The position numbers and the translations under genes are program-made. A stretch of 64,000 nt of DNA from Microglena sp. YARC. Its lineage: Eukaryota; Chlorophyta; Chlorophyceae; Chlamydomonadales; Chlamydomonadaceae. This document shows positions 24,541-51,860 of the stretch, piece after piece. Within the stretch, counting starts at the first letter, position 1, and each line of letters begins with the position of its first letter. Under the pieces are notes generated by a model. That model was given only the letters and a program-made list of their open reading frames with translations. It was not told where the DNA came from and did no database searches. Where the stretch lies: assembly GCA_022414725.1 (NCBI GenBank), contig CM039463.1, forward strand, positions 90,398,227 through 90,462,226. The letters are read 5' to 3'.

Positions 24541-25205
24541 CAGCCTATCATCGCCTGGTGTGCACACAGCCACCAGAACACAGCAACAGCCTATCATCGC
24601 CAGGTGTGCACACAGCCACCAGAACACAGCAACAGCCTATCATCGCCAGGTGTGCACACAGCCAGCAGCGCACAGCAACAGCCTATCATCGCCAGGTGTG
24701 CACACAGCCACCAGAACACAGCAACAGCCTATCATCGCCAGGTGTGCACACAGCCAGCAGCGCACAGCAACAGCCTATCATCGCCAGGTGTGCACACAGC
24801 CACCAGAACACAGCAACAGCCTATCATCGCCAGGTGTGCACACAGCCAGCAGCGCACAGCAACAGCCTATCATCGCCTGTTGTGCACACAGCCAGCAGCG
24901 CACAGCAACAGCCTATCATCGCCAGGTGTGCACACAGCCACCAGAACACAGCAACAGCCTATCATCGCCAGGTGTGCACACAGCCTGCAGCGCACAGCAA
25001 CAGCCTATCATCGCCAGGTGTGCACACAGCCAGTAGAACACAGCAACAGCCTATCATCGCCAGGTGTGCACACAGCCACCAGAACACAGCAACAGCCTAT
25101 CATCGCCAGGTGTGCACACAGCCAGCAGCGCACAGCAACAGCCTATCATCGCCAGGTGTGCACACAGCCAGTAGAACACAGCAACAGCCTATCATCGCCA
25201 GATAT
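24541..25205. repeat. 46-bp minisatellite growing from the WDR76-like gene's stop codon
   Basis: About fifteen 46-bp units (CAACAGCCTATCATCGCCAG core). The copy at 25185-25205 is the end of the WDR76-like gene itself: on the minus strand TATCTGGCGATGATAGGC encodes the last residues IWR and the TGA stop. Plus-strand frames of up to 293 codons are array translations. Confidence 0.9.
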
Positions 25206-27255
25206 GCACACGGCCACTACTGGTTGCTGCAGCCACCACATTACGTGTTGGGTGGCAACACATGCGGGAGGGAATAGCTGTCATTAGGTCACGAGATTCC
25301 AGCTTGGTAACTGTGCCCCCCTTGTTGTGTGCCCTTGCTCCCAAGGCTACATCCATGTCGGCGTCCTCATTGGGAATACTGAGCACGTCGACAGCACGGT
25401 TCATACAGCCGACCAGGGCGCAGTCGGAGGCAGGCCCCCAAATAGCGCGGAAGGGGATGACCCACCTGAGTGGAAGGCGGTAGGGTGGTCAGGAGGGAGG
25501 TGGGGTGGGGTGGGGAGGAGGTGGGTGGTAACTGGTAAGGAGGGGGATGGAGAGAAGGGGGATGGGCTGGGGTGGTAAGGAGAGGTGTGGTGAGGAGGGG
25601 GGTGGGGGTGGGGAGGAGGGGGGTGAAAAGGAGGGGGGTAGGGTGGGAAGGAAGGCGATGGGGTGGGGTGGGAAGGTGGTGGGTGGGGGTGGAAAGAGGG
25701 GAGTGGGGTGATTAGGAGGGGGGTGGGAAGTAGAGGGGTGGGGCAGTAAGAAGGGGGGTGGGTTGGTAAGGAGGGGGGTGAGGGGGTGGGGGTGGGGAGG
25801 TAAGGAGGGGAGTGGGGTGCGAAGGAGGCATGGGTGGATGGAACGAGGCAGGTAGGGAAGTAGGGATGGATGGATTGATCGATATATGAGCCAATGGATA
25901 AATGAATGCAATTGTTCAAGTACAAACATCTAGTCTGATTTGTTCATCAATGAACCAAACACTTCAAGAATCAGTTGATAGCCAAAAACAACAAGCAACC
26001 AGCCAAACCGTGCATACCTCATCCACTATTTTCTTTTTGGGCTATGAGTGGCAGCTTCTAGGCAGCTCCTTTTACCCACCCTTGGGGCGGATCTAAAGCT
26101 AGCTAGTGCGTCTGAAAGCTGACAGGACAGGCAGGCCAATGCAGCTGTAATCTTTGGGCTCGACTCAGTCGCTGGCTAATGGAGCTGGGTGGAAGCTGCT
26201 ACGGGTAGCCCCCAAAAGAAAGAGTGACATCATCCAAACAAACACACGACCATTGCCTGGTCAATAGTGGGAATACAATGTTGCCATAATATAAATACAT
26301 TATACGTTATGAGGGGGGGGGCAAGAAAAAATATTTCGTACCTCATGTTCAATATGGATAGAGAACCGCAAGCATTAGTCGATACAAAAAAATCATGTCG
26401 ATACACCCACGGGCGGCCGAGATAGAGGGGGGGGGGGAGGGGGTCCGACCGTTTTTCCAACTTTATTTGTACTTCATGTAACTTTCTTGCCAGTGCGAAT
26501 TTTTGAGCGTTTAGTGCACCATCGAGAAGGGATTGACGAGACGAGTTCAAATCTGCAAACGTTATTCTGTTACTCCCAGTGTGCAATTGGTGGGTGCCCT
26601 GGAAGGCACATCCCGGCTGAACGCCAGGCTGGACGCCAGGCTGGACGTCACCTACAGCTTAGTGCCTAGCGTCGCAAGAACGGCAGTTAGGCTGAAAAAC
26701 GCGCGTTCTTATGCGCGTTCTGAATTCTAGTCCCTGACGAGGTTCCTAAAGCAGTCGAGCCTGGGGTCTAGCCCCCCCACCCACCCCCACCACACACACA
26801 ACCCTCCTCCCCACATACCATCACCCTCACACACCCCCACCACACCTGAGCAGACCCTCAGGCTCCAGAATACAATTTGAGTCAATTAAGCGATGATAAT
26901 GATGATGATAATGATAAATAGACAGATAAATAACGCCTTCAGTCCTTTTCATGCCTGGGTGATCTTCTCCAAGGGCGCGGACTACTGAGCTACCCAAGAA
27001 CATTGTAAAAATACTCAAAACTGAATAACTTTGTCTAAACTTGATATTTTTTATTTTTGGTTGAATGGTTGGAAAGGCCTTGACGAGATGATACTCATGG
27101 ACCCCCCTTTCACTATGTTATACTGCCTGGGTGTCCAGATATGAAGCCTTGGGGGGGGGGGGGGGGGGGGGGGGGTAGGTGGGTGGTCAGGGGTTCAAAA
27201 AAACAATTTCCCATGCGGTCTGCACACTTTATTCCTGCCCCCCCTCGATACATTA

Positions 27256-27286
<31 letters not shown>

Positions 27287-51149: not shown

Positions 51150-51245
51150 CTTAAGGATTGTATTGCCGCTGAGTCCACACATTAGAGGAGTTTTTGCATC
51201 AGTTGTTGCTCTTATCGTGCAGAGTTCCAAGAAAGAATCTACGGG
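51150..51245 (-). CDS. probable upstream exon of the WDR76-like gene
   Basis: Minus-strand acceptor CTGCAG|CCC (51245) and donor CTTAAG|GTAACG (51150) bound 32 open codons, PVDSFLELCTIRATTDAK then LMCGLSGNTILK, phase 0 at both ends. The next core exon (48939) also begins at phase 0 (K|GSLVLVVPSAG), so the join is in frame. Copies of its start follow upstream, as for the other exons of this gene. There is no recognisable domain; it could belong to another gene. Confidence 0.45.
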
Positions 51246-51249
51246 CTGC

Positions 51250-51860
51250 AGTTGTAAAGCAAGGTGAGTTGTCAGAATATGCGGGCTGCGATCGTTGAGC
51301 AAGGGTGGGTGCAAAGCTACAAGAAAGAATATACGGGCTGCAGTTGTTGAGCAAGGTGAGTTGTCAGAATACGCGGGCTGCGATATTTGAGCAAGGATGG
51401 GTGCGGTGCAATTTTTGAGCACGGGTGAGTGCAAAGCTACAAGAAAGAATATACGGGCTGCAGCTGTTGAGGAAGGGTGGGCGCGGTGCAATTGTTGAGC
51501 AAGGGTGGGCGCGGTGCAATTGATGACTTAGGGTGGGTGCAAAGCTAAAAGAAAGAATCTACAGGCTGCAGTTGTTGAGCAAGGGTGGGCGCGGTGCAAT
51601 TGTTGAGCAAGGGTGGGAGTGTGAAAGTCTTGCTTTTGTGGGTGTGTGAAAGGGTGTTTGTATGGTGTGTGAGTGGTCGTGAGTTAGGTAGGTAGGTATA
51701 AGGGGGGTTGGGAGTGGGAAGTGGTTGCTTGTGTGGGTGATTGAAAGGGAGTGGGAGTCTTCAGTTAGCGCATAAGTTGTTGCCCTTACCGTGCAGAGTC
51801 CTAAGAAAGAATCTACAGGCTAGGGTTGTTGAGCAAGGTGAGTGGTCCTGAGTCAAACAA
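51250..51860 (-). repeat. tandem copies of the start of exon 51150-51245
   Basis: Blocks with GAAAGAATCTACGGGCTGCA and GTTGTTGAGCAAGGGTGGG recur about eight times. The copy at 51760-51825 is longest and includes GCATAAGTTGTTGCCCTTAC. Confidence 0.82.

Follow-up and report, generated by a model that had tools for sequence, protein, structure and literature searches.

Degenerate copies of exon edges in the introns of a WDR76-like gene and of other genes in the green alga Microglena sp. YARC

Genes in the window

The window, by which we mean the whole stretch of 64,000 nucleotides that was analysed, comes from a contig of 95 Mb in a genome of 568 Mb. A WDR76/CMR1-like gene, in the product of which a WD40 repeat (PF00400) was found, lies on the minus strand of the window, and a gene for L-aspartate oxidase (NADB) on the plus strand. 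Exon by exon, the two genes showed a 100% match to gene23956-9528_t (P0001) and gene23957-9529_t (P0033), records that share a common naming style. The annotated WDR76 chain of 13 exons comprises 2022 nt including the stop codon, and its translation is the complete gene23956-9528_t (P0001). The closest species-named relatives of NADB come from algae such as Chlamydomonas, Astrephomene, Volvox and Pleodorina. These four genera belong to the Chlamydomonadales. Elsewhere in the window, the reading frames at 18186-21752 on the minus strand are presumably those of a Copia-like retrotransposon.

The WDR76 model of the preliminary description proved incomplete. The annotated chain adds exons 53138-53046 and 45322-45160 and lacks 51245-51150; it has 49474-49388 where the earlier model had 48939-48826; and the acceptor formerly given as 47421 is annotated at 47424, three bases away. 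We therefore counted edges in the annotated chain (24 edges) and also in a 14-exon variant that keeps both the 49474 and the 48939 exons (26 edges). For NADB, the self-comparison counts were made with the last exon set one base late and without its stop, and the codon-position and whole-exon tests with the corrected boundary. The WDR76 gene and the copies of exon edges found in the window are as follows.

25192..53138, minus strand: WDR76/CMR1-like WD40 gene; annotated chain of 13 exons, 673 aa, identical to protein record gene23956-9528_t (P0001)
51150..51245, minus strand: possible exon outside the annotated chain; four upstream acceptor copies at about 51337, 51457, 51565 and 51819, AG kept in all
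49388..49474, minus strand: annotated exon, itself a unit of the 48939 acceptor family; donor GTCAAA/gtcctc
48826..48939, minus strand: exon of the earlier model; acceptor copies at 49010, 49474 and 49541, donor copy at 48184
47541..47832, minus strand: acceptor-side copies of exon 47424-47202
45598..45663, minus strand: interior copy of exon 45322-45160, in the upstream intron
40439..40699, minus strand: acceptor-side copies of exon 40272-40124; further ones at 42354-43443 inside a 273-bp array
39907..40062, minus strand: donor-side copy of exon 40272-40124
38341..39561, minus strand: three acceptor-side copies of exon 37514-37294
36944..37079, minus strand: donor-side copy of exon 37514-37294
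35523..36459, minus strand: six acceptor-side copies of exon 35455-35284, AG absent at the aligned place in five of the six
34210..34497, minus strand: donor-side and interior copy of exon 35455-35284
33677..33910, minus strand: two acceptor-side copies of exon 33501-33368
32829..33100, minus strand: two donor-side copies of exon 33501-33368
30386..30685, minus strand: two acceptor-side copies of exon 30299-30212
29908..30087, minus strand: two donor-side copies of exon 30299-30212
27922..27963, minus strand: acceptor-side copy of exon 27845-27647
24525..25219, minus strand: array of a 46-bp unit at the stop-codon edge, starting inside the last codons and repeating the stop edge in the 3' flank; 13 exact 24-bp cores
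59987..60535, plus strand: three acceptor-side copies (about 60100, 60306 and 60479) of NADB exon 60650-61066, in the upstream intron

Copies of WDR76 exon edges

The WDR76 gene was compared with itself by blastn after low-complexity sequence and repeats with a period of 12 or less had been masked, and a direct local duplication was defined as a match at an offset of 20-6000 bp with E<=1e-3. Each of the 13 edges at which copies had been described earlier has at least one direct copy at E<=1e-3, in alignments of 39-575 columns. These edges are the acceptors at 51245, 48939, 47424, 40272, 37514, 35455, 33501 and 30299 and the donors at 48826, 40124, 37294, 33368 and 30212; the alignment at donor 37294 includes just 7 intron bases, and that at donor 33368 just 10. 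Copied edges that were missing from the earlier list are donor 35284, acceptor 27845 and, weakly, donor 51150 (E 5e-3), and the same is true of exon-interior copies for exons 47424-47202, 45322-45160 and 35455-35284. Four WDR76 alignments are interior-only, and all of them lie within adjacent introns.

The earlier statement that nearly every exon edge is copied was too strong, since copies were found at about half of the edges. When at least 6 bp were required on both sides of the junction, 15 of the 26 edges in the 14-exon model had copies (9/13 acceptors and 6/13 donors), and with at least 12 bp the number was 13 of 26 (9/13 and 4/13). The corresponding counts for the annotated chain were 13/24 and 11/24. 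Direct duplications accounted for 55.6% of the unmasked intron bases and 42.6% of the exon bases, and inverted ones for 2.9% and 0%, respectively; no inverted match was found by the blastn self-comparison at any WDR76 edge. Coverage within exons fell from 0.60-0.62 in the 60 bp next to an edge to 0.45 at 60-90 bp and to 0.23 at greater distances. The exonic parts of the copies are 67-95% identical to the exon, some with indels, at offsets of 101-1999 bp, and identity showed no clear age gradient with distance among 27 copies (Spearman -0.17, P=0.40).

Placement of the copies and the 49474/48939 family

The copies had been described as always lying in the adjacent intron, and this held for 24 of 24 spanning alignments, with acceptor copies upstream of the exon and donor copies downstream. 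The tally was drawn from alignments with at least 15 exon bases and sets aside eight rows of the stop array as well as five of the 49474/48939 family, for which the choice of the true exon decides the side. One-sided placement is what tandem duplication, combined with the need for one unbroken exon, forces: the unit that is joined to the exon body is the one that survives.

The same rule points to a likely original within the 49474/48939 family. Exon 48939-48826 is the most downstream unit of the family, with the donor ATCAAG/gtatgg and a downstream copy of its own. We infer that the annotation may have taken a shed copy, 49474-49388, for an exon. Gene predictors should be used with caution here, because shed copies may pass as exons, as may have occurred at this site.

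A gap separates the two copies in 32 of the 40 edge pairs, which leaves room for a dispersed local mechanism. The stop-codon edge at 25192 is arrayed like the splice edges, though no splice site lies there.

Edge copies in other genes

The density of copies in one gene had been singled out as the unusual part, but NADB in the window and chaperonin genes on other contigs behave alike. NADB has three copies, all on the acceptor side of exon 60650, and no copies at its other edges. The chaperonin genes (PF00118) were picked regardless of repeats and gave 64 matches, and 30 loci were taken for analysis. We entered 51 of the 64 matches, of which 42 lay inside these loci (22 of the 42 with copies), and dropped one that had four stops, leaving 41. 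Direct copies in the flanking DNA were found for 22 of these 41 exon matches, at 10 acceptor and 11 donor edges, the edges being approximate because exon ends were taken as the ends of domain matches and two adjacent matches may be one exon. Acceptors and donors thus showed no bias, and at 21/82 their edge rate comes near the value of 0.254 for duplication coverage in noncoding DNA. Among the 41 exon matches at the chaperonin loci there were no wrong-side alignments, no whole-exon copies and no inverted copies, and when the noncoding DNA was shuffled, 0 of the 41 matches had copies in each of three shuffles.

We also looked at 30 DEAD-box loci and, on visual inspection, set 23 of them aside as a multicopy element. 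Exon copies were absent from seven helicase loci, and four of the 23 set-aside loci, when inspected, had no copies over the open frame. The DEAD-box domain turns up at more than 20 places, each time in a large open frame and with a similar score; this large-frame repeat is probably a multicopy mobile element.

Local duplication is patchy across the genome. In six 10-kb stretches taken elsewhere at round coordinates, direct duplication was 0.243 when pooled (0.00-0.39) and inverted duplication 0.029. Direct duplication was 0.35 in positions 1-17000 of the window, and it ranged from 0.00 to 0.85 among the chaperonin regions; the WDR76 introns, at 0.56, exceed the pooled values of 0.24-0.25. The pattern at the chaperonin genes suggests that edge copies are a feature of the genome at large and not a peculiarity of WDR76. 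In the intergenic 3.5 kb that separates WDR76 from NADB (53139-56685), direct local duplication was 0.00, unlike in the introns of both genes.

Edge counts compared with random duplication

We ran forward simulations in which random tandem duplications, deletions, substitutions and small indels accumulated and exon-breaking events were rejected. Intron coverage was the quantity to which the runs were tuned, so that only the ratio of edges to intron is put to the test. The preliminary description had proposed that selection alone may explain the enrichment and that a random-breakpoint model would be the check; when this comparison was run, the proposal held up: junction copies were not clearly above random expectation, nor did edge copies clearly exceed what the local density of duplication predicts. 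For the annotated chain (400 runs, one counting rule), 11/24 edges were observed against 9.2±2.5 simulated at the 12-bp margin (P=0.30), and 13/24 against 10.0±2.6 at the 6-bp margin (P=0.147). For the 14-exon model, 13/26 were observed against 10.6±2.6 (P=0.25, 200 runs), the simulated count being made under a slightly stricter rule. Two other length settings gave simulated means of 10.9 and 10.5, and an initial smaller simulation (24 runs per setting) gave 4-13 of 26 edges at an intron coverage of 0.58. Exon coverage was 0.43 observed and 0.45-0.46 simulated.

It is unlikely that exon edges are preferred targets of duplication, for instance by slippage in pyrimidine tracts or by R-loops near intron 3' ends, though several observations point that way. 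The WDR76 acceptors taken alone were high (9/13 against 5.3±1.8 simulated, P=0.035), as were those of the annotated chain (8/12; P=0.040 at 12 bp and 0.060 at 6 bp). The 3' ends of WDR76 introns are richer in duplication than the 5' ends, with higher coverage in the final 200 bp than in the initial 200 bp (Wilcoxon P=0.02, n=12), and tandem repeats are denser near intron-exon junctions in two green algae, according to the accessible part of that report (PMC3887541). However, unmasked coverage is flat across acceptor edges: 0.62 at the edge, then 0.64, 0.60, 0.63, 0.62 and 0.63 in bins to 400 bp, under a rule that counts 8/13 acceptors where the inclusive rule counts 9/13. Near donors it was 0.30 at the edge and then 0.28, 0.14, 0.16, 0.30 and 0.30. 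Targeting is also at odds with the total edge counts, with the equal acceptor and donor counts of the chaperonins near the background rate, with the arrayed stop-codon edge, and with the duplication in window positions 1-17000 (0.35) and in the six 10-kb stretches (pooled 0.24). Junction targeting is thus disfavoured by both the edge-to-intron ratio and the chaperonin genes. We do not claim an acceptor bias either, given 9 vs 4 edges in WDR76 (Fisher P=0.12) and 19 vs 15 when pooled with the chaperonins (P=0.61).

When the simulations permitted whole-exon duplication, 577/3917 edge matches fell on the other side of the exon (midpoint rule). A looser tally of simulated partners outside the adjacent intron gave 985/3613, 1073/3621 and 1105/3381, with array overlaps and whole-exon copies scored as misses. 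Among the 34 real edge families there were 0 whole-exon copies against 2.34 expected (P=0.055), which is a hint. Other-side matches in the simulation, set against the lack of real whole-exon copies, suggest that the plain model may lack a term.

State of the copied sites

Mismatches between exon and copy were counted by codon position over 30 copies of both genes, and amounted to 84/631, 70/634 and 120/633 at positions 1, 2 and 3. The ratio of third-position to other mismatches, 1.56, is close to the value of about 1.6 estimated by hand for a copy that drifts freely, compared with a constrained exon; constrained copies would be expected to give a stronger third-position excess. An indel or an in-frame stop was present in 12 of 27 WDR76 copies. 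Many copies do keep AG or GT, as had been described: AG is present in 25/35 acceptor copies and GT in 9/9 donor copies. For comparison, other AGs were kept in 114/133 cases (P=0.075, copies lower) and other GTs in 29/45 (P=0.045, copies higher), but these rows are not independent, because the arrays share ancestry, and local alignments favour matches toward their ends. Use of 18 of the 19 copied sites tested would cause a premature stop. Judged by these features of the sequence, the copies are probably dead.

That the copied sites are instead retained as alternative or decoy splice sites seems very improbable to us. The full retention of GT in donor copies fits such a role, as does the use of copy 49474-49388 as an exon in the annotated chain, and the copied acceptor at 35605 keeps its AG and would insert 50 codons in frame with no stop. 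Retention is nevertheless contradicted by AG, which is kept less often in the copies than elsewhere, and by the premature stops that nearly all tested sites would cause, and both the codon-position pattern and the broken copies fit free drift.

We give still less credence to the idea that the copies mark introns born by tandem duplication of coding sequence containing AGGT. Such gains have been reported, the potato case having crossed an existing boundary in the portion of the report that was available (PMC4974935), and the four interior-only WDR76 alignments would agree with it. But the 24 spanning copies hold intron together with exon sequence and lie inside existing introns, and in none of these 24 was an exonic segment found to supply both new splice sites. 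Least credible of all is an assembly artefact from misjoined haplotypes or collapsed repeats: a region full of arrays is difficult to assemble, but the exonic parts are 5-33% divergent, some with indels, at offsets of 101-1999 bp, and other contigs show the same pattern.

A model for the edge copies

The best explanation, to which we assign a probability of roughly 0.83, is that the copies are local tandem duplications with random breakpoints, tolerated because splicing probably uses the edge still attached to the complete exon. The one-sided geometry, the simulation and the codon-position counts favour the earlier proposal of recurrent tandem duplication across junctions; what falls away is the view that the density of copies sets this one gene apart. 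Under this explanation, blind local duplication would hit exon edges at roughly the density at which it hits introns. A duplication crossing an acceptor would leave a dead unit upstream, and one crossing a donor would leave a dead unit downstream, and selection would remove duplications that break the reading frame. The events were presumably tandem duplications. The spliceosome would skip the copies, perhaps as each carries one splice site and so defines no exon; this role for exon definition is suggested because no copy found holds both sites of an exon. Introns would then grow partly from shed exon edges.

A bolder version, which we hold only tentatively and think doubtful, is that introns grow largely from shed edges and that thousands of natural decoy splice sites, counterparts of real ones, are therefore present in the genome; they would be ignored by the spliceosome because there is one site per unit, and whole-exon copies, which would splice in, would be purged. 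The copies are natural near-duplicates of splice sites, mostly within 1-2 kb of them, so that how splicing picks among similar sites becomes testable, as does the question of whether exon definition decides the choice. Shed edges may, in addition, explain in a simple way how introns grow in the Microglena genome.

Comparison with known systems

The accessible parts of two amphioxus reports describe "mirages", tandem units of varied length that lie across exon boundaries and many, not all, of which keep AG or GT (PMC3087553, PMC3902484). Splicing is said there to be undisturbed by mirages, on the basis of Adh3 data and of RT-PCR for globin. Mirages are reported gene by gene in these parts, and their units are similar in BflGb6 (81-100%) and imperfect in PGBD5 (PMC3087553, PMC3902484). 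A further mark of mirages is that haplotypes differ in length. The WDR76 copies resemble mirages in that they are direct repeats containing intron and exon of one boundary, in that both 3' and 5' boundaries are hit (9/13 acceptors and 4-6/13 donors, with 10 and 11 edges in the chaperonins), and in that AG or GT is present in many but not all units (AG 25/35, GT 9/9). They differ from the amphioxus reports in coming from a green alga, in affecting 15/26 edges of one gene and further genes of the same genome, in their exonic identity of 67-95%, and in being known from DNA alone. No report of mirages in a green alga was found in the open-licence literature searched. The WDR76 edge copies appear to belong to the known mirage kind.

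Duplication inside genes is a likeness to internal gene duplication, which Gao and Lynch (2009) reportedly took to be common. In potato RdRp, a tandem duplication crossing one intron-exon boundary made a new intron, which RNA-seq confirmed, according to the available portion of the report (PMC4974935). Crossing of a boundary is common to the two cases, but the duplication in potato led to a new intron, whereas the copies in the alga appear to be dead. The introns of Chlamydomonas reinhardtii and Volvox carteri contain dense tandem repeats near junctions; these were counted by region, and exon-containing repeats, unlike here, are not discussed in the accessible part of that report (PMC3887541).

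Finally, the window contains an open reading frame at 9228-10049 that had no Pfam match. It ends in a 50-bp array (9982-10182), several units of which retain GTGCAG followed by GTAAGT, and this is possibly a donor-edge array of a third gene.
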